DNA of 37,064 bases from Gemmatimonadaceae bacterium (GTDB lineage: Bacteria > Gemmatimonadota > Gemmatimonadetes > Gemmatimonadales > Gemmatimonadaceae): NCBI GenBank assembly GCA_025928335.1, contig JAICJQ010000017.1, forward strand, positions 1-37,064, written 5' to 3'. The notes beneath the pieces were generated by a model, which did not search any database, was not told where the DNA came from, and saw nothing but the letters and a program-made list of their open reading frames with translations. Positions 8,191 to 37,064 of the stretch are shown here, in pieces. The position numbers and the translations under genes are program-made. Position 1 is the first letter of the stretch, and each line of letters starts with the position of its first letter.

Positions 8191-10008
8191 ATGGTAACCG
8201 TGACCCATCGATCTTTAGCGCGACGCGGCGTTGTCGTCGCCCTCATTCTTGGCGGAGCGTCGTTCAGACTGTCCGCGCAACAGAAGTGCCCGGCGACGAG
8301 CGGCGGGGCGCTGCCGTTGACGTATAGCGGCGGACCGACCGTTGCCGAGATCACGGCGTGCGACCTGATGACACGACTCTACATCTATGCCGCCGATTCC
8401 ATGAAGGGTCGGGAGGCAGGAACGCCGGACGCGATCCGCGCTACGACGTACATCGAGTCCGAAGTCAAGCGCCTCGGCCTCAAGCCCGCCGGAGACAACG
8501 GCACCTTCTTCCAGTATCTGCCCGTGACGGCCCGCGTACTTGGCGCCGCCTCGTCGATCACGACCGGTTCGACGACGTTCAAGCCGAATGAGGATTTCTC
8601 GATCACCGGCCTCGGCGCGGATCGAAACGTGTCGGGCGACGTCATCTACGCCGGCTCGCTCGCCGACACCGCGAACATGCTGACCGCCGACCAGGTACGG
8701 GGCAAGATCGTGATCGCGGCGGGTGGGACCGGCGGCCGTGGGTTCGGTGGCCGCGGCGGGTTCGGAGCGGGGGGCGCGCTCGGCGGTGCCGCCGCGATCC
8801 TGACCATTGTTCCCGCAATCGCGCCGGCGCGCCCGGCGTTCACGCTGAACGACACCGTACAGAGCGAAGGTCGCGCCGCATACGCGGCCGCGAATCCGAA
8901 TGCCGGTGGCCGCGGTGGTCGCGGCGGTCGTGGCGGCCGCGGTGGCGGTGGCGGCCAGCAACCCGTCGCGGGCACGATTACGCCGGCGGTCGCCGCAGCG
9001 CTGCTCGGGAAATCGGTGCAGAGCGCGGCACGCGGTGACGTCGGTGGTCAGGCGACGATCGACGTTCACGTCCAAACGGTTGCCGCGCCGACGCGAAACG
9101 TCATCGGCATCATTCCGGGAAGCGATCCGAAGCTCCGCGGCGAATACGTCGTGATCGGGGCGCATTCGGATCACGTCGGCATGTCGGGGGCGCGCCCGGT
9201 CGTCGAACACGATTCGCTCAAGGCGTACAACATCGTGGCGCGCGTCGAAGGCGCGGACACGCGCAACGCACCGCCGCCGACGGCCGAGCAGTGGGTGCGC
9301 ATCAACGCGATCAAGGATTCGCTGCGCAGGCTCTACCCGCCGCGCCTCGACTCGATCAGCAACGGCGCCGACGACGACGGCTCGGGCAGCGTGTCGATTC
9401 TCGAGATCGCCGAAGCCTTCGCCAAAGGTCCGGCGAAGCCGAAGCGCTCGCTGCTCTTCATCTGGCAGATGGGCGAGGAGAAGGGACTGTGGGGCTCGCA
9501 GTATTTCACCAACCACCCGACGGTGCCTCGCGACTCGATCGTCGCCGATCTCAATCTCGACATGGTCGGCCGTGGTGAGGCAACCGACATTACCGGGCGG
9601 AGCAAGGAGGACGTGGAGCTCTCGGGCGCGCCGAACTACCTGCAACTCGTCGGCTCACGGCGTCTCTCGACCGAACTGGGCGACATCGCCGAAGACGTGA
9701 GCAAGAAAGAGCCGATGCCCTTCAAGTTCGACTACGCGATGGACGCGAACGGGCATCCGCAGAACATCTATTGTCGCAGTGACCATGCAAATTATGCGCG
9801 ATACGGAATTCCCGTGATCTTCTTCACCACGGGAGGCCACGCCGACTATCACCAGGTGACGGACGAGCCGGAGTACATCCAGTACCAACACATGGCGCGC
9901 GTCGACAAGCTCGTCTACGATATCGCGACCCGTGTGGCGAATCTTGATCACCGCGTGAAGGTCGACGGCCCGAAGGCGCCGAGCCCGTTTGCCGGCTGCC
10001 AGCAGTAA
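8191..10008 (+). CDS. Secreted M28 family metallopeptidase with PA-like insert
   Basis: This 605-aa protein carries a signal peptide (residues about 9-28, ending RLSAQQ) and then an M28 zinc-peptidase with a protease-associated (PA) insertion. The zinc ligands and catalytic residues are visible in order: GAHSDHVGM (His, base Asp), NGADDDGSGSVSILE (bridging Asp), QMGEEKGLWGSQYF (Glu-Glu), DLNLDMVGRG (Asp) and GGHADYHQVTDEPE (His). The PA region holds two Gly/Arg-rich runs (GGRGFGGRGGFGAGG and AGGRGGRGGRGGRGGGGG), which are unusual low-complexity inserts. ATG 8155 is an alternative start, but it would give a 25-residue n-region and an almost leaderless transcript. Likely role: aminopeptidase activity on peptides outside the cytoplasm. 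Confidence 0.92.
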   Translation: MVTVTHRSLARRGVVVALILGGASFRLSAQQKCPATSGGALPLTYSGGPTVAEITACDLMTRLYIYAADSMKGREAGTPDAIRATTYIESEVKRLGLKPAGDNGTFFQYLPVTARVLGAASSITTGSTTFKPNEDFSITGLGADRNVSGDVIYAGSLADTANMLTADQVRGKIVIAAGGTGGRGFGGRGGFGAGGALGGAAAILTIVPAIAPARPAFTLNDTVQSEGRAAYAAANPNAGGRGGRGGRGGRGGGGGQQPVAGTITPAVAAALLGKSVQSAARGDVGGQATIDVHVQTVAAPTRNVIGIIPGSDPKLRGEYVVIGAHSDHVGMSGARPVVEHDSLKAYNIVARVEGADTRNAPPPTAEQWVRINAIKDSLRRLYPPRLDSISNGADDDGSGSVSILEIAEAFAKGPAKPKRSLLFIWQMGEEKGLWGSQYFTNHPTVPRDSIVADLNLDMVGRGEATDITGRSKEDVELSGAPNYLQLVGSRRLSTELGDIAEDVSKKEPMPFKFDYAMDANGHPQNIYCRSDHANYARYGIPVIFFTTGGHADYHQVTDEPEYIQYQHMARVDKLVYDIATRVANLDHRVKVDGPKAPSPFAGCQQ

Positions 10009-10019
10009 CGAATCAGGAT

Positions 10020-10283
10020 TCTCTAAGCGTGCCGATCTCCCGCGTTCGTTCGGCGACGGTGTAGTGAACCAATCCAAAGATTCCGATCGCGGCGAGGTGA
10101 GAGCAAGCGCGGCGAAGGCGGGAGTAGCGATGTCGCGAGCCGACGTTCGGCGGCGAGCTCGCCGAATTGTGCCTCGGCTACCGCAACGTTCGCGACGACG
10201 GCGCCCGGAATCCGGGCCACGGCTTGCCGCACGAGCGGCGCGAACGCTAGCGGATCCGTGAGCCGTCTCCAGTTGAACGTCAA
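10020..10283 (-). pseudogene. Remnant of an ADOP/FtsX permease (C-terminal part)
   Basis: The minus strand reads DPLAFAPLVRQAVARIPGAV followed by AVAEAQFGELAAERRLATSLL, typical of the second periplasmic domain of ADOP permeases just before the last FtsX domain. After a frameshift the other frames read AFAALAL and then AAIGIFGLVHYTVAERTREI. That is the standard next stretch (compare TREIGIRVALGA in the intact permease at 598-3288). Only about 85 codons survive, with two frameshifts and no start or tail. The 329-nt stretch between the M28 gene and the AraC gene holds nothing else recognisable apart from the hairpin at 10280-10320. Confidence 0.8.
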
Positions 10284-10320
10284 GAGGACGACGGCGAACG
10301 TACGAGGCCGGTCCTCTTGA
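10280..10320. repeat. 10-bp perfect inverted repeat downstream of the AraC gene
   Basis: TCAAGAGGAC (10280-10289) and GTCCTCTTGA (10311-10320) are exact reverse complements, with a 21-nt loop that itself has some GC pairing. It lies 17 nt beyond the stop of the minus-strand AraC gene, so it could be its transcript end. No T-run follows, so it is not a standard intrinsic terminator. Confidence 0.5.
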
Positions 10321-10337
10321 TTGTCAGGATGCGCCGA

Positions 10338-11279
10338 TTACCGCTGGCGCGAATGCCGCCACGCGGCCGGCGAGAGCCCAGTCTCACGTTTGAAAGCGCG
10401 GCTGAACGCGGCCTCGGAATCGTACCCCACCTGGGCGCCGATCGCCGCGACCTTCGCCGAGCTGTTCACCAACTGCTCGGCGGCCAACTGCAGCCGCCAC
10501 CGCGCGAGATACGACATCGGCGGCACGCCGACGACGTGAGAGAAGCGCTCGGCGAGGACCGTCCGCGAGGAGGCAATGCGCTGCGCGAGCTCGGGGAGTG
10601 TCCACGAATGCGCGGGACGCGCGTGCAGCTCGGAGAGCGCGGGACCGACCACCGGATCACGGAGTCCGGCGAGCCATCCCGTATCGCGCTCCGGAATAGT
10701 CTCCATGTGCCGCCGAACGACCTCGACGAACATCAGTTCGGCCATCCGCGTGAGCATCGTCTCACTGCCGAGGCGCTCGGCGCGCGATTCGGCGACGGCT
10801 TGTTGAGGAAACTGTGAAAGCCACCCGCCGGCGATGCCCGTGAGATGCATCTGCGGCGGAAGTGAGGCGAGGAGGGGATTGTACGGCCGAACGTCACAAC
10901 CGAGAAAGCCGCACACGAACACGGTATCGCGGCCCCCGGCCGGGCCGAGTTGCACGGTATTCGGGTAGCGATCGGGCGAATCACGAAGCGAGTGCAGGCG
11001 AAGGCCGGCCGCGCTCGACATGAGATGCGCCCCACCGTGCGGAAACATGATCGCATCACCCGGTCCCAGCAGCACCTGCGGCTGCCCCTCGAGACCACCC
11101 CAACAACTGCCCGAGACGAGGATGTGATACGAGATCAGGTGCTCGGCTTGCGGGAGAATGCGCGGGACGAGATCGCGCGCCGGGGCGGTGAACACCGACC
11201 ATGGGTGTCCGGCCTCGACCAAATAGAAGTAGGCGCCCGTCAGGCGAACCGCGCGCAACACATCCGAGACCGGATCCAT
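10338..11279 (-). CDS. AraC family transcriptional regulator with cupin sensor domain
   Basis: This 313-aa protein has an N-terminal cupin_6-type domain (VEAGHPWSVFTAPARDLVPR, then SYHILVSGSCW, LLGPGDAIMFPHGGAH, and SRAERLGSETMLTRMAELMF near residues 170-190). Two helix-turn-helix motifs follow (TLPELAQRIASSRTVLAERF and AAIGAQVGYDSEAAFSRAFK), and it ends in the AraC signature KRETGLSPAAWRHSR. Such proteins are often local or stress-response regulators. The target is unknown; the neighbouring nitrilase gene is co-directional, 42 nt upstream. The ATG start gives the full cupin domain. Confidence 0.93.
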   Translation of the reverse strand: MDPVSDVLRAVRLTGAYFYLVEAGHPWSVFTAPARDLVPRILPQAEHLISYHILVSGSCWGGLEGQPQVLLGPGDAIMFPHGGAHLMSSAAGLRLHSLRDSPDRYPNTVQLGPAGGRDTVFVCGFLGCDVRPYNPLLASLPPQMHLTGIAGGWLSQFPQQAVAESRAERLGSETMLTRMAELMFVEVVRRHMETIPERDTGWLAGLRDPVVGPALSELHARPAHSWTLPELAQRIASSRTVLAERFSHVVGVPPMSYLARWRLQLAAEQLVNSSAKVAAIGAQVGYDSEAAFSRAFKRETGLSPAAWRHSRQR

Positions 11280-32020: not shown

Positions 32021-32755
32021 CTACGGTTCGACGAAAGCTATAAACCGAATGGATTTGCCGCCCTGATTCTGAATTCGCCACGTCGGATCGTTCGGTAACC
32101 GAATCGTTCCGCCAACCCATGGGCCGAGCGTTCTCGTGGCGATGGAGCGGGCGACATCCAATGTGTCGAGCGCGATCAGCCACGCGCTCTTCGTCGGCGT
32201 CCCGGGGCGTATCGTGGTGTTCGGTGGAATGGTCACGAGAGTGACGCGACGTCGTGCCGTAGCGAATGCTGGATGTTCAGTCGCCCCAATGAATGTGGCG
32301 CTTGGCTGAGACGTGCGCCGGCAATCGAGGGGTCTGTCCGCCACTGCCTGTTCGCACGTGTTGCGCACCCTCGTCTGCGGCTCGAGGAGCTCCACCGTGA
32401 TGTTATCGAAGTCCACGCCGCCGGGATTCCGCGCGACGTGCGCGAATTTGCCCGGCGTGTAATGGATGCTCAAATCGGCGGACGTGATCGTCGCCTCGGG
32501 AGCGCCGAGCTTGGCGTTGACCACGGTGCTGGCCCCGAGCGCGATCCAGAAGTAGTCGGGATCGTGTTCGTGCAGCAGTGTGGTATCGTGCGCCGGGACG
32601 CGGACGCGCAACACGCGGAGCGTCGAGTCCTGGTAGGCGAGATGATGGTGCGGCTCGTTCTTCGCGAGCACTGCGCCGGGAATCGACTGTGCTTGCGCGG
32701 TCGCGGCACACGCCAGCATGAGGCTCGATGAGAGGATGCGCTCGAGACTGATCAT
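32021..32755 (-). CDS. Secreted cupin-like protein
   Basis: The 244-aa protein has a signal peptide (RILSSSLMLACAATAQAQ) and a cupin-type barrel with a His-rich edge: NEPHHHLAYQDSTLRVLRVR then AHDTTLLHEHDPDYFWIALG. A second, similar half follows (TEHPAFATARRRVTLVTIPP to GKSIRFIAFVEP), so it may be bicupin-like. The histidines HEHDP are candidate metal ligands. Its ATG overlaps the glutaminyl-cyclotransferase stop as ATGA (32752-32755), making it the last gene of the operon. Although some cupins degrade oxalate, this one is periplasmic and lacks a clear oxalate decarboxylase signature. Linking it to oxalate would be speculation. Confidence 0.75.
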   Translation of the reverse strand: MISLERILSSSLMLACAATAQAQSIPGAVLAKNEPHHHLAYQDSTLRVLRVRVPAHDTTLLHEHDPDYFWIALGASTVVNAKLGAPEATITSADLSIHYTPGKFAHVARNPGGVDFDNITVELLEPQTRVRNTCEQAVADRPLDCRRTSQPSATFIGATEHPAFATARRRVTLVTIPPNTTIRPGTPTKSAWLIALDTLDVARSIATRTLGPWVGGTIRLPNDPTWRIQNQGGKSIRFIAFVEP

Positions 32756-33519
32756 CGATGAATCGTATCGCCGGCCGGCTTCAACTCAACCTCGAACATG
32801 ACAGGCCACATCTTACCGGTGAGCAGCAATCGTTTTCCATCCGGTGTCAGTGAGATGCCGTTCATGACCTCGGCGTACCCGGCCCGCTCCGGATAGAGAT
32901 CCGCAAAATCGAGGATCTCACGGACGTTCCCGGTAGTCGGATCGATACGAACCACCCAATTCGATTGATACACATTTGCCAGCACGTCGCCGCCGACGAG
33001 CTCGAGCTCGTTCAGCTGTTGAATCGCTTGACCACCGTAGCGCACGTGCACGACGCGTTCAACGTGAAACGTCCGGGCCTCCATGAAGCGCAGCGAATCG
33101 GAGCCGTCGCTCATGATCAACTGCTTTCCGTCGGTCGTGAGACCCCAGCCTTCGCCCGGATAACGAATCGAGTCCACGAGGGCCAGCGTCGACGGCGCGT
33201 AGACATAGGCGACGCCGGCTTTCCAGGTGAGTTGGTAGAGGCGCCCGCCGACGAGCGCCAGTCCTTCGCCGAAGCGGTCAGGCGCGAGCTCGTGCTTCGC
33301 CAAGACGCGTCCGGATTTGAGATCGACGCGCCGTACGTCGGAATGCCCGTACCGTCCCGTGCTCTCGAACAACACGCTGTCCGCCCAGAATAACCCCTGC
33401 GTGTAGGCGGTCGAATCGTGCGCGTATTGCGCGACGACATCGAACCGTTCGGGCGTGCGGCGCTCGCCGCCGCACGCGACGGCGGCGAGGACCCAGAGCA
33501 CCGCTAGGCGGCTTTCCAA
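32752..33519 (-). CDS. Glutaminyl-peptide cyclotransferase (glutamine cyclotransferase, plant-type)
   Basis: The 255-aa protein has a lipoprotein signal MESRLAVLWVLAAVAC (Cys16) and a five-bladed propeller: HDSTAYTQGLFWADSVLFES, TGRYGHSDVRRVDLKSGRVL, FGEGLALVGGRLYQLTWKAG, RYPGEGWGLTTDGKQLIMSD and LNELELVGGDVLANVYQSNW. It ends with NGISLTPDGKRLLLTGKMWP. The blocks 'TQGL', 'FGEG', 'QLTWK', 'EGWGLT' and 'LTGK.WP' are hallmark positions of the plant-type glutaminyl cyclase, which makes pyroglutamate at peptide N-termini. TTG 33519 is chosen for a full signal peptide. It overlaps the aminotransferase end by 16 nt; GTG 33501 is an alternative. The stop overlaps the cupin start. Confidence 0.9.
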   Translation of the reverse strand: MESRLAVLWVLAAVACGGERRTPERFDVVAQYAHDSTAYTQGLFWADSVLFESTGRYGHSDVRRVDLKSGRVLAKHELAPDRFGEGLALVGGRLYQLTWKAGVAYVYAPSTLALVDSIRYPGEGWGLTTDGKQLIMSDGSDSLRFMEARTFHVERVVHVRYGGQAIQQLNELELVGGDVLANVYQSNWVVRIDPTTGNVREILDFADLYPERAGYAEVMNGISLTPDGKRLLLTGKMWPVMFEVELKPAGDTIHR

Positions 33520-34685
33520 CCTTCCGCGCGTAGTGCTTCCTCGAGGGCACCGAGGAACCGTTCGACGCGCGGGATCTGCGCGTTGTAACCCATCACGCCG
33601 ATGCGCCACACTTTTCCGGCGAGCACGCCGAGGCCGCCCGACATCTCCACACCCATGCCGAGCAAGCGGCGACGAACCGCCGCTTCGTCCACACCCGTCG
33701 GAACATTGACGACGTTGATCGTTGCACAGCGGTCGGCAGGAGCGGGGAAGAGCGAGATCCCGAGCTTGTCGAGTCCGCGCACCAACGCCTCATGTGCCGT
33801 CTGATGGCGCGCCCAGCGCGCCTCGAGGCCTTCCTCGAGGATGAGGCGCATCGCTTCGTGAAAGCCGTAGATCATCGCGATTGGCGCGGTGTGATGGAAC
33901 GCGCGTGACCGCGACGCACGCTCTTCGCCCCAATACTGGAAGAGGAGCGCGAGATCGAGATACCAGGTGTGCGGCTTTGATTTCCTCGCCTGCACGGCCT
34001 GCATGGCGCGCGGTCCAATCGAGATCGGTCCGAGCCCCGGGGGCGCGCCGATGCACTTCTGGCTGCACGATCCCGCGGCGTCCACACCGAGCGCGTCGAG
34101 GTCGATCGGCAGGCCGGCAAGCGACGTGACGCAGTCCATCGCGACCAGCGCGTCGTAGCGCTTCGCCACTTCCACCATCGGCGCGATCGGCTGACAGGCA
34201 CCGGTTGTCGTCTCGGCGTGCACGAACCCGACGAGCTTCGCCGGTTTCTTTTTGAGCTCGGCGTCGATCTGCGCTGGATCGAGCGTCTGTCCCGACGGCA
34301 CTTCGACAACGCGTACGTCGGCTCCGGCGCGTCGCGCCATCTCAGCCATTCGATGCCCGAAGTATCCGGCGACGCCGATCACCGCGCTGTCGCCGTCTTC
34401 GAGCAGATTCATCATGATCGTCTCGATGCCCGCGGACCCGGTGGCGGAGATCGGGAGCGTGTGGTGATTCGCCGTGCGGAAGACGCCGCGCAGGGAACGC
34501 ATCACCTGGTCCATGAGCTCGACGAAATACGGATCGAGATGCCCGATCTGGTTCGCCGTCATTGCCTGCAAGACGCGCGGATCGGGATTGCTCGGCCCCG
34601 GACCGAAGAGCAGTCGCTCCGGCGGATTGAGCTTCGGCGGCGCGGGAGTTTTCTCGGAGGTCGGCCCGATGGTCATCGTCGTCAT
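33504..34685 (-). CDS. Alanine-glyoxylate / serine-glyoxylate-type aminotransferase (class V)
   Basis: The 393-aa cytoplasmic PLP enzyme shows the AGAT family opening LLFGPGPSNPDPRVLQAMTA then GHLDPYFVELMDQVMRSLRG. The substrate/PLP region has SATGSAGIETIMMNLLEDGD, HAETTTGACQP and the aspartate segment MDCVTSLAGLPIDLDALGVD. The PLP lysine is Lys210 in GSCSQKCIGAPPGLGPISIG. The enzyme transfers an amino group from Ala or Ser to glyoxylate, giving glycine. ATG 34685 overlaps the CoA-ligase stop as ATGA, so it is co-translated. It is placed after a PanE2-like reductase and an oxalyl-CoA-type ligase. That context makes glyoxylate its likely acceptor. Confidence 0.92.
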   Translation of the reverse strand: MTTMTIGPTSEKTPAPPKLNPPERLLFGPGPSNPDPRVLQAMTANQIGHLDPYFVELMDQVMRSLRGVFRTANHHTLPISATGSAGIETIMMNLLEDGDSAVIGVAGYFGHRMAEMARRAGADVRVVEVPSGQTLDPAQIDAELKKKPAKLVGFVHAETTTGACQPIAPMVEVAKRYDALVAMDCVTSLAGLPIDLDALGVDAAGSCSQKCIGAPPGLGPISIGPRAMQAVQARKSKPHTWYLDLALLFQYWGEERASRSRAFHHTAPIAMIYGFHEAMRLILEEGLEARWARHQTAHEALVRGLDKLGISLFPAPADRCATINVVNVPTGVDEAAVRRRLLGMGVEMSGGLGVLAGKVWRIGVMGYNAQIPRVERFLGALEEALRAEGWKAA

Positions 34686-36199
34686 GCGAGTCCCAGTTTT
34701 TGTGCGAGACCGATGCGCTGCAGTTTGCCTGTCGCGCCCACCGGAATCTGGTCGAGAATAAGAATCTTCTTCGGCACCTTGTACGGTGCGAGCCGCGCCG
34801 ACGCGAACTCCCGAAGCTCTTTGTCCGTGGCGGCGACGCCTTGACGGAGCACGATCGCCGCGGCGACTTCCTCGCCCAGCATGTCGTGCGGCATGGCGAA
34901 GGTCACGCATTGGTGGACGGCAGGATGGTCCATGATGATCTCGTCCACTTCCCGTGGAGAGATCTTCTCGCCGCCGCGGTTGATGATCTCCTTGAGCCGC
35001 CCGACGATCGCCACGTAGCCGTCGTCGTCCATGACACCTTGGTCGCCCGTGCGGAACCAGCCGTCGTAGAACGCATCGGCGTTTGCCTTCGGATTGTTCT
35101 CGTACGCGCTCATCACGTTCGGGCCCTTGATGACGATCTCGCCCGGTTGGCCGCGCGGCACGGTGGTCCCCGTTTCGTCGACGATGCGGATCTCCGGACC
35201 GCCGCTCGGTCCGACGGTCCCCGGCTTGCGCGGACCACTGAGCGGATTGCTCGCCATCTGGTGCGCTGCTTCCGTCATTCCGTACGCCTCGACGACCGGA
35301 ATGCCGAACACTCGCTCCAACTCCGTGATGACGGTCGGCGGCAACGCCGACGATGACGAGCGAATGAAGCGCAGGCGGTGGGTCTTTATGATGTCCTGAT
35401 TTCCCGACGCGCGAAGCAAGATTGCCTGGTGCATCGTCGGGACGCCGGTGTACCAGGTCGGCTTGACCTCGTCGACCCAGCCAAAAAACTTGAGCGCGTT
35501 GAACCCCGGCGAGCAGCACACCTCACCGCCCGCCGACAGCGGCGCCGAGAGCGCGGCGATCAGGCCGTGAATATGGAACAGCGGCATGATCACGAGTCCG
35601 CGATCGTTCGACGTCAGTGCGAGCGTCTTTCGAATGTTCGACGCCGACGCGGCGATGTTCTTGTGCGCCAGCGGCACGATCTTGGGGCGCGACGTCGTTC
35701 CCGATGTGTGCAGCACGAGCGCGATGTCATCCGGCGACGGGGCGCGCACTGCCTGCGGCGTGCTGCCACTCCCTTCGTAGCGAAGCGTGAAGGTGCCGGC
35801 GCCTTTCTCCTGCTGCGCGATCAAACGCGCGATCGGAATGCCCAGCTTTTCGGCCACCCCGACCGCGGGCGAATCCTTGCCCTCGGCCACGACCAACAGC
35901 TTGGCGCGCAGGTCGGTGAGATAAAACTCGAATTCTTCGGCGCGATAGGTTGGATTGAGCGGTGCGGCGGTCGCGGCCGACCCGATCGACAAGAACGCCG
36001 CCGCCATCTCGGGTCCGTTGTCGAGCACGATGCCGACGCGATCGTTCGGCCCGATGCCTTGCGTCGCGAGCGACGCCGAGACGTCCGCGACGAGCGCGCG
36101 AAGTCCGCGATAGGTGAGCGGCTTGCCGCCCGGTGAGCTGAGCGCCGGTGCGTCGTCCGCGCCGGCCTCGAGGTAGCCAGGAATTGTTCCTGCAGTCAT
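34682..36199 (-). CDS. Acyl-CoA synthetase, AAE3/Pcs60-like (probable oxalate-CoA ligase)
   Basis: The 505-aa protein belongs to the AMP-forming ANL family: the P-loop HTSGTTSRPK at 164-173, VVEAYGMTEAAHQMASNPLS (YGMTE 306-310), a WFRTGDQGVMDDDGYVAIVG stretch, GRLKEIINRGGEKISPREVD (hinge) and the catalytic GKLQR near residue 497. It shares with Arabidopsis AAE3 and yeast Pcs60 blocks such as HTSGTTSRPK, LRFIRSSSSALPP, AYGMTEAAHQMASNPL and INRGGEKISP. Those enzymes make oxalyl-CoA from oxalate, ATP and CoA. The substrate here is inferred from that similarity and from the operon. Its ATG overlaps the upstream reductase stop (ATGA), and its stop overlaps the aminotransferase start. Confidence 0.85.
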   Translation of the reverse strand: MTAGTIPGYLEAGADDAPALSSPGGKPLTYRGLRALVADVSASLATQGIGPNDRVGIVLDNGPEMAAAFLSIGSAATAAPLNPTYRAEEFEFYLTDLRAKLLVVAEGKDSPAVGVAEKLGIPIARLIAQQEKGAGTFTLRYEGSGSTPQAVRAPSPDDIALVLHTSGTTSRPKIVPLAHKNIAASASNIRKTLALTSNDRGLVIMPLFHIHGLIAALSAPLSAGGEVCCSPGFNALKFFGWVDEVKPTWYTGVPTMHQAILLRASGNQDIIKTHRLRFIRSSSSALPPTVITELERVFGIPVVEAYGMTEAAHQMASNPLSGPRKPGTVGPSGGPEIRIVDETGTTVPRGQPGEIVIKGPNVMSAYENNPKANADAFYDGWFRTGDQGVMDDDGYVAIVGRLKEIINRGGEKISPREVDEIIMDHPAVHQCVTFAMPHDMLGEEVAAAIVLRQGVAATDKELREFASARLAPYKVPKKILILDQIPVGATGKLQRIGLAQKLGLA

Positions 36200-37064
36200 G
36201 CCATTTGTACCGATGTGGGTTGACCCGAGAAATGTGGCGACGCCGGCAGCGAGAGGCGGCCATTCGACTCGCCGAGCTGCTTGGCGAGAAGGCTGACGAG
36301 GGCGTAGACCGCGTCGATGTGCGGCGTCGGCGTCTGCGTGAGCCGGCCCAGCTCCACGACGGCGCCGATCAGCGCCTCGAGCTCGAGCGGCCGTCCCGCC
36401 TCCACGTCCTGCAACATCGACGTTTTGTGCTCGCCGACTTTTTCCGCGCCCGCGATCCGCTTATCGATGCCGACGCGAAAGGTGACGCCGAGCTTGTTCG
36501 CCACCGTCTCAGCCTCGCGCATCATCTCGACGCTCAGCTCGCGCGTCAGCGGGAAGCGGAGCAGCCCCGCCAACGTGGAGTGCGTAAGCGCGCTGATCGG
36601 ATTGAAGCTGAGATTGCCCCAGAGCTTGAGCCAGATCTCGCTCCGAATGTCCGCGATCACCGGCGACTTGAAGCCGGCGCGCGAGAACGCGGCCGAAATG
36701 GCCTGTGCGCGCGGCGACGTCGAGCCGTCGGGCTCACCGAGCGTGAACCGCCTGCCTTCGACGACGTGAACGACACCCGGCGCCTCGAGCGTCGCCGCCG
36801 GATAGACCACCGAGCCGATCACGCGGTTGCGGTCGATGAGCCGCGCGATCGAACCGTCCGGATCGGCGGAGCGAACCGACGTGCCCTCGAGCGCGCCGCC
36901 ATGCTTGTGGAAATACCAGAAGGGGATTCCGTTCTGCATCGTGACGATCGCGGTGTCCGCGTGGCAGAGCGCGGCGACATCGGCGGCAATCGCGCCGACT
37001 TGATGCGCCTTCACGGCGAGAATCACGTAGTCTTGGGGACCCGCGTCGGCTGTTTTCTCGTACA
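36196..37064 (-). CDS. PanE/ApbA-family reductase, PanE2-like (5' end beyond window)
   Basis: The frame is open through the window edge; the visible 288 codons lack only the N-terminal Rossmann GxGxxG part. The late Rossmann strand reads DYVILAVKAHQVG and TMQNGIPFWYFHKHGG. The C-terminal ketopantoate-reductase domain has VYPAATLEAPGVVHVVEGRR, IRSEIWLKLWGNLSFNPISA and LGVTFRVGIDKRIAGAEKVG then HKTSMLQDVEAGRPLELEAL. The QNGIPFWYF and GNLSFNPISALT blocks are those of the PanE2-like subgroup rather than of E. coli PanE. A PanE2 protein in Methylobacterium extorquens reduces oxalyl-CoA to glyoxylate. The next gene encodes an oxalyl-CoA-type ligase, so this role is likely here. True ketopantoate reduction is the alternative. 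Confidence 0.85.
   Translation of the reverse strand, partial: YEKTADAGPQDYVILAVKAHQVGAIAADVAALCHADTAIVTMQNGIPFWYFHKHGGALEGTSVRSADPDGSIARLIDRNRVIGSVVYPAATLEAPGVVHVVEGRRFTLGEPDGSTSPRAQAISAAFSRAGFKSPVIADIRSEIWLKLWGNLSFNPISALTHSTLAGLLRFPLTRELSVEMMREAETVANKLGVTFRVGIDKRIAGAEKVGEHKTSMLQDVEAGRPLELEALIGAVVELGRLTQTPTPHIDAVYALVSLLAKQLGESNGRLSLPASPHFSGQPTSVQMA

Follow-up and report, generated by a model that had tools for sequence, protein, structure and literature searches.

Oxalotrophy in bacteria is usually scored by the genes frc and oxc, whose products, formyl-coenzyme A (CoA) transferase (Frc) and oxalyl-CoA decarboxylase (Oxc), define a pathway that passes through oxalyl-CoA, often with the transporter OxlT, and that requires formyl-CoA and releases formate. 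In Methylobacterium extorquens, PanE2 is reported to reduce oxalyl-CoA to glyoxylate, leading on to glycine, and the study in question (Schneider et al. 2012) reportedly covers a mutant lacking oxalyl-CoA synthetase and the reductase. Here we describe a 37,064 nt contig, JAICJQ010000017.1 of the assembly GCA_025928335.1 (Gemmatimonadaceae bacterium), the whole of which is termed the window (also contig C8), that carries genes for a PanE2-like reductase, an AAE3/Pcs60-like oxalyl-CoA synthetase (OXS) and a class V aminotransferase (AGT). Judged from sequence, these genes and a transporter gene on a second contig probably form an operon for oxalate uptake and assimilation (or detoxification) that ends in glycine. 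Like frc/oxc oxalotrophy, the proposed route would pass through oxalyl-CoA, but no match to Frc was found at E <= 1e-100 in the window's own genome, which is 79% complete.

The individual reactions are already known and the OXS–PanE2 pair is not biochemically new, as Methylobacterium carries it. In four Methylobacterium loci an OFA-family transporter gene accompanies PanE2 and OXS; at least two of these loci (L085, L094) have a gene of the FAH family (fumarylacetoacetase) between OFA and PanE2, and in Methylobacterium bullatum the order is OFA-FAH-PanE2-OXS. Methylobacterium differs from the window in that Frc and Oxc are over the cut-off in two of the three named genomes tested, and in that no AGT gene was found in its three named clusters, whereas one is appended to the window operon. 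Plant AAE3 and yeast Pcs60 are the closest solved relatives of the window ligase, whereas in plants oxalyl-CoA mainly feeds Oxc. Further systems are described in open-licence papers, which are cited here by PMC number and from excerpts of their text. In Cupriavidus necator, ApbA2, which belongs to the same reductase family as the window enzyme, is found with frc-oxc, but oxalyl-CoA is there made by formyl-CoA transferase and not by an ATP-dependent ligase; deletion of apbA2 slows growth on oxalate (PMC7486775). The figure legend of a plant review lists a synthetase, a reductase and an aminotransferase (PMC4945632). A synthetic yeast route, OXA-FAT2-panE2, places both activities in series to yield glyoxylate as a glycine/serine precursor, although it was engineered from separate genes, whereas the window holds a natural operon with an aminotransferase and, by the contig join discussed below, a transporter (PMC12686821). 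Elsewhere, Oxc, Frc and OxlT are grouped as one pathway toolkit and CoA transferases are named as the makers of oxalyl-CoA, the word ‘synthetase’ being absent from the main text (PMC12927642). Within the excerpts of the open-licence literature searched, no description of an OXS–PanE2 operon was found. Two things look new: how widely OXS–PanE2 occurs where Frc is not found, and the compact operon of the window, which comprises the following features:

36196..37064, minus strand: panE2-like gene, predicted oxalyl-CoA reductase; N-terminus cut by the contig end (open reading frame listed as 36196-37062, 5' end open)
34682..36199, minus strand: predicted oxalyl-CoA synthetase (OXS; oxalate-CoA ligase, AAE3/Pcs60-like), 505 amino acids; from the open reading frame list and matches in the PDB
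33504..34685, minus strand: predicted alanine/serine-glyoxylate-type class V aminotransferase (AGT), 393 amino acids from the ATG at 34685; from the match to 1vjo and to Aminotran_5
36196..36199, minus strand: ATGA in which the reductase gene ends and the ligase gene starts, read in the sequence
34682..34685, minus strand: ATGA in which the ligase gene ends and the aminotransferase gene starts, read in the sequence
Contig C195, off the window and directly upstream of the reductase: predicted OFA oxalate/formate antiporter, 448 residues, with a GTGA overlap; from TIGR04259

The original prediction, made from the window alone, had proposed a three-gene operon. The three minus-strand genes and both ATGA junctions (36199-36196 and 34685-34682) are indeed present, and their Pfam families are ApbA and ApbA_C for the reductase, AMP-binding and AMP-binding_C for the ligase and Aminotran_5 for AGT; the transporter, lying outside the window, could not be seen. 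Including it, the probable order of the operon is OFA transporter > PanE2 > OXS > AGT. The putative OFA-family transporter would import oxalate, the AAE3-like ligase would spend ATP to form oxalyl-CoA, the PanE2-like reductase would convert oxalyl-CoA and NADPH (the cofactor expected from its family) into glyoxylate and free CoA, and the class V aminotransferase would turn glyoxylate into glycine, its presumed main exit. Since activation would use ATP, formyl-CoA and the Frc/Oxc cycle would not be needed. The role could be oxalate assimilation alongside other substrates, or detoxification. Four-base gene overlaps are ordinary in bacteria, so the junctions on their own are not telling, and in the relative G242 the ATGA/GTGA overlaps are not kept, the same genes lying about 1, 15 and 40 bases apart. 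What goes beyond chance is the conserved neighbourhood and the co-occurrence of the genes. A promoter scan, itself uninformative, returned 0 sites.

When OXS was compared with solved structures, the four best matches were all oxalate-CoA ligases, the full-length ones with 423 bits for 6qjz, 422.5 for 5ie0 and 356 for 8aff, as against 231 for malonyl-CoA synthetase, the next family. These solved oxalate-CoA ligases come from grass pea, Arabidopsis and yeast. Residues S283 and H313 of OXS, which are the same in all 14 orthologues aligned, align with S289 and H319 of AtAAE3, presumably residues of the oxalate pocket. By these comparisons, OXS is closest to proven oxalate ligases and not to other acyl-CoA synthetases.

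The reductase, although truncated in the window, scored 368 bits against the NF005089 model for PanE2 (cut-off 223); it is 65% identical to the PanE2-like protein of M. bullatum and 51% identical to an ApbA2-like copy in C. metallidurans. In a quick tree, the reductases of the window's phylum formed a clade sister to Methylobacterium PanE2-like proteins (SH-aLRT 96), Methylobacterium being represented in the test by these PanE2-like proteins. A quick OXS tree agrees (SH-aLRT 99), which suggests that PanE2 and OXS have moved as a pair. The M. bullatum and C. metallidurans proteins are 50.9% identical and 66% similar to each other, figures that match the 51%/66% identity/similarity published for M. 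extorquens PanE2 and C. necator ApbA2 (PMC7486775). PanE of M. extorquens has been purified, assayed with glyoxylate and called reversible (PMC9485241), and M. extorquens PanE2 is also characterised in PMC8411744. Against the ketopantoate reductase model TIGR00745, the truncated window protein scored 139.5 bits (cut-off 141.35), and another gene of the same genome (on L001) reached 191 bits; the separate panE whose presence or absence the original prediction had left to be checked therefore has a candidate.

Conservation of the neighbourhood was assessed in 249 genomes of Gemmatimonadota, with E <= 1e-100 as the threshold for an OXS orthologue, and in a scan of named genomes, where at least 587 stretches encode an OXS relative at the loose threshold of E <= 1e-3 and the best 80 were examined. 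OXS orthologues are present in 38 of the 249 phylum genomes, that of the window included. PanE2 lies within 4 kb of OXS in 30 of the 37 relatives, on the same strand in 29 and directly adjacent in 28 of those, in two gene orders; where it was not found near OXS (7/37), the contig extends 1.2 kb or less on at least one side in four genomes and exceeds 3.5 kb on either side of OXS in three. Of the best 80 named loci, 66 have PanE2 on the same strand and less than 5 kb away, 42 of them with the two genes adjacent, and the 14 loci where it is not nearby comprise 11 in which one flank or both fall short of 4.5 kb and three with full flanks. Most of these 80 loci bear labels of Pseudomonadota or its subgroups. 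Gemmatimonadetes/Gemmatimonadota account for two, and Chloroflexi, Acidobacteria, Polyangiaceae, Synechocystis and Akkermansia for one each; no PanE2 was found next to OXS in the Acidobacteria and Synechocystis loci. The adjacency expected by the original prediction was thus borne out for PanE2–OXS and not for AGT, which is near OXS in two of 38 phylum genomes and none of the 80 named loci. The OXS–PanE2 pair is not peculiar to this lineage, being common in Pseudomonadota loci, including Methylobacterium, and an invention specific to the lineage is ruled out by the mostly Pseudomonadota labels of the nearest 80 named loci.

Transport genes vary around the pair. OFA occurs in 14 of the best 80 named loci, and at least two genes of clusters c2, c3 and c5, whose representatives match the Pfam families TctC, TctB and TctA, occur in 24; a Rhodobacteraceae plasmid carries ABC transporter-OXS-PanE2 with an overlapping junction, and in the relative G015 extra genes, among them one for a TRAP substrate-binding protein, stand between PanE2 and OXS. 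A TauE/SafE-family permease (cluster c6, e.g. L116 7518-8330) recurs beside OXS/PanE2 in 15 of the 80 loci, and the annotation of an Azospirillum locus places one beside PanE2; it is possibly another carrier of oxalate or organic anions. The FAH-family gene (PF01557; L085 6981-7757; cluster c4 among L092-L171) also recurs by PanE2, with c4 in 22 of the 80 named loci. Other genes that neighbour OXS within the phylum (Nramp, amidohydrolase, ankyrin, PQQ dehydrogenase) have no evident link to oxalate. Two labels in the named set are probable binning errors: a metagenome-assembled genome labelled Akkermansia muciniphila (L124) carries a Comamonadaceae-like PanE2, and another labelled Betaproteobacteria (L093) carries an OXS inside the clade of the window's phylum.

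Across the phylum, PanE2 is present in 45 of the 249 genomes and Frc (TIGR03253) is over its cut-off in 16. PanE2 and OXS occur together in 34 (Fisher p 6e-28), and Frc is present in seven of the 11 PanE2 genomes that are without OXS (p 1e-6 among OXS-negative genomes); these counts and p values ignore shared ancestry. Hence 41 of the 45 PanE2 genomes have a link to an enzyme that would form oxalyl-CoA, be it OXS or Frc, and this link, with the NF005089 subfamily and the clade, speaks against an ordinary pantothenate panE. None of the 38 phylum OXS genomes has Frc over the cut-off, a zero overlap that is not significant alone (P 0.065). In the 48 genomes tested of the 80 named OXS genomes, Frc was matched at E <= 1e-100 in four and over the cut-off in two, both Methylobacterium, the other two matches (L093, L101) scoring 359-385 bits against a cut-off of 504. 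The replacement of the Frc route that had been proposed for the three-gene set is supported by these counts (0/38 phylum and 2/48 named genomes).

Frc was used as the marker in place of Oxc because the Oxc cut-off misses divergent forms. Oxc was matched at E <= 1e-80 in six of the 48 named genomes and over the cut-off in the same two Methylobacterium, while over the phylum none of the 249 genomes exceeded the TIGR03254 cut-off, which misses divergent forms, and the best score in the window's own genome was 148 bits. Two culturable carriers of OXS, Rubrivivax rivuli (L136) and Methyloversatilis thermotolerans (L109), gave no match to Frc at E <= 1e-100 or to Oxc at E <= 1e-80. A divergent Oxc-like thiamine-diphosphate enzyme is encoded beside frc in eight phylum genomes (G045, G078, G086, G099, G110, G122, G162 and G225), scoring about 198-234 bits where the cut-off is 739, and such enzymes beside frc in two plasmid loci scored 225-258 bits. 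Standard Oxc models would miss this type, and the Oxc cut-off was dropped as a clean test of absence.

The reductase gene is interrupted by the end of the window, and a matching N-terminus is found at the edge of contig C195 (L007), which holds 59 codons and one base. This N-terminus is 82% identical to residues 1-56 of the 348-amino-acid G242 orthologue, with which the window part aligns from residue 60 onward, and direct abutment of C195 and C8 would give 59 + 1 + 288 codons, or 348, equal to the G242 protein. OFA > PanE2 > OXS is moreover continuous on a single contig in the relatives G242, G027 and G076; codon count and continuity together support the join. The transporter encoded on C195 scored 575 bits against TIGR04259 (cut-off 335), and was the sole such gene found in its own genome at E <= 1e-60. 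OFA was sought in the 38 OXS genomes and in two genomes of the same genus without OXS, in neither of which (0/2) it was found. As for the original proposal that oxalate is activated, reduced and aminated, activation and reduction are well supported by the matches to solved structures, the neighbourhood, the co-occurrence and the upstream oxalate transporter, whereas amination depends on one gene, seen in the neighbourhood in only two genomes.

Several observations weigh against an uptake-to-glycine operon. C195 and C8 share no end overlap of 8 bases or more, so the link between OFA and PanE2 crosses a contig break; OFA is found in just six of the 38 OXS genomes of the phylum; and one would not expect an oxalate/formate antiporter where formate is not produced. 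The pairing itself has exceptions, with four PanE2 genomes that have neither OXS nor Frc, four of 38 OXS genomes without PanE2 and nine of 16 Frc genomes without PanE2. Glycine formation is the weakest step, since AGT adjoins OXS in just two of the 38 phylum OXS genomes (the window's own and G242) and in 0/80 of the best named loci, counts by which AGT is rejected as a conserved component. It is possible, if rather unlikely, that the module is confined to OFA-PanE2-OXS, taking oxalate to glyoxylate, and that AGT was recruited downstream of it only recently and serves mainly in another reaction (e.g. serine-pyruvate or ureidoglycine-type transamination), glyoxylate leaving by some other exit. 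The absence of AGT from the neighbourhood in 36/38 phylum OXS genomes and from all 80 named loci fits such a recruit, as does a 72% identical orthologue in G144, a genome of the same genus without OXS or PanE2, where AGT stands outside any OXS context. Its best solved relatives are nevertheless glyoxylate aminotransferases, with 354 bits for 1vjo (alanine-glyoxylate aminotransferase) and 284 bits for 2huf, so that by similarity it is closest to proven glyoxylate aminotransferases; it was under the cut-off for all of the NCBIfam equivalogs BhcA, PhnW and pyridoxamine-pyruvate. AGT also overlaps OXS by ATGA in the window, and the G242 orthologue next to OXS is 77-78% identical, while the match in each of the other six genomes at E <= 1e-40 has 35% identity or less; it looks like an addition particular to the window's lineage. 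As for other sinks of glyoxylate, the 79%-complete genome of the window gave no match to Gcl at E <= 1e-60 and none to malate synthase at E <= 1e-20, which speaks for AGT as the exit there. Across the 38 OXS genomes, Gcl is over the cut-off in none (nine weaker matches, the best 376 against 711 bits) and malate synthase is present in six, 32 being without a match, and this too counts against the proposal.

The direction of the route and its substrate may also be questioned. It is very improbable that the operon runs in reverse, PanE2 oxidising glyoxylate to oxalyl-CoA and oxalate being released and exported: the PanE2/ApbA2 reaction is described as reversible (PMC9485241, PMC7486775) and an antiporter can export, but a ligase driven by ATP favours making the acyl-CoA, the reverse route would call for a hydrolase or Oxc, and relatives pair OXS/PanE2 with uptake-type systems, at least two TctC/TctB/TctA-type genes being held by 22 of the 66 named PanE2 loci. 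Similarly little credence is given to the idea that ligase and reductase act on another short acid and that the oxalate label reflects family drift. The plant and yeast enzymes are moderately similar and function is read from sequence, yet the oxalate ligases score about 190 bits above malonyl-CoA synthetase, the gene upstream is an oxalate-transporter equivalog, and OXS or Frc accompanies PanE2 in the 41 of 45 genomes noted above. The operon as proposed, running from oxalate to glycine, is the more probable reading. We also lean towards the wider view that OXS and PanE2 constitute a widespread bacterial means of oxalate assimilation without Frc, invisible to frc/oxc surveys, which is here extended into an operon from transporter to glycine.

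If this is true, many Pseudomonadota and Gemmatimonadota, and perhaps members of other phyla, can assimilate or detoxify oxalate without frc/oxc genes, by a route that costs ATP and NADPH and releases no formate. The compact operon would also offer ready natural parts for the conversion of oxalate to glyoxylate that was built by hand in yeast (PMC12686821).

Two further features lie near these genes. On the same contig as OFA (C195, L007), 9213-9791 and 9755-10384 on the plus strand encode a split thiamine-diphosphate enzyme pair that resembles the alpha and beta subunits of sulfopyruvate decarboxylase, both below the NCBIfam cut-offs. In the window, a glutamine cyclotransferase-like open reading frame (PF05096) occupies 32752-33609 on the minus strand; its listed start overlaps the end of the AGT gene, and it is possibly part of the same transcript.

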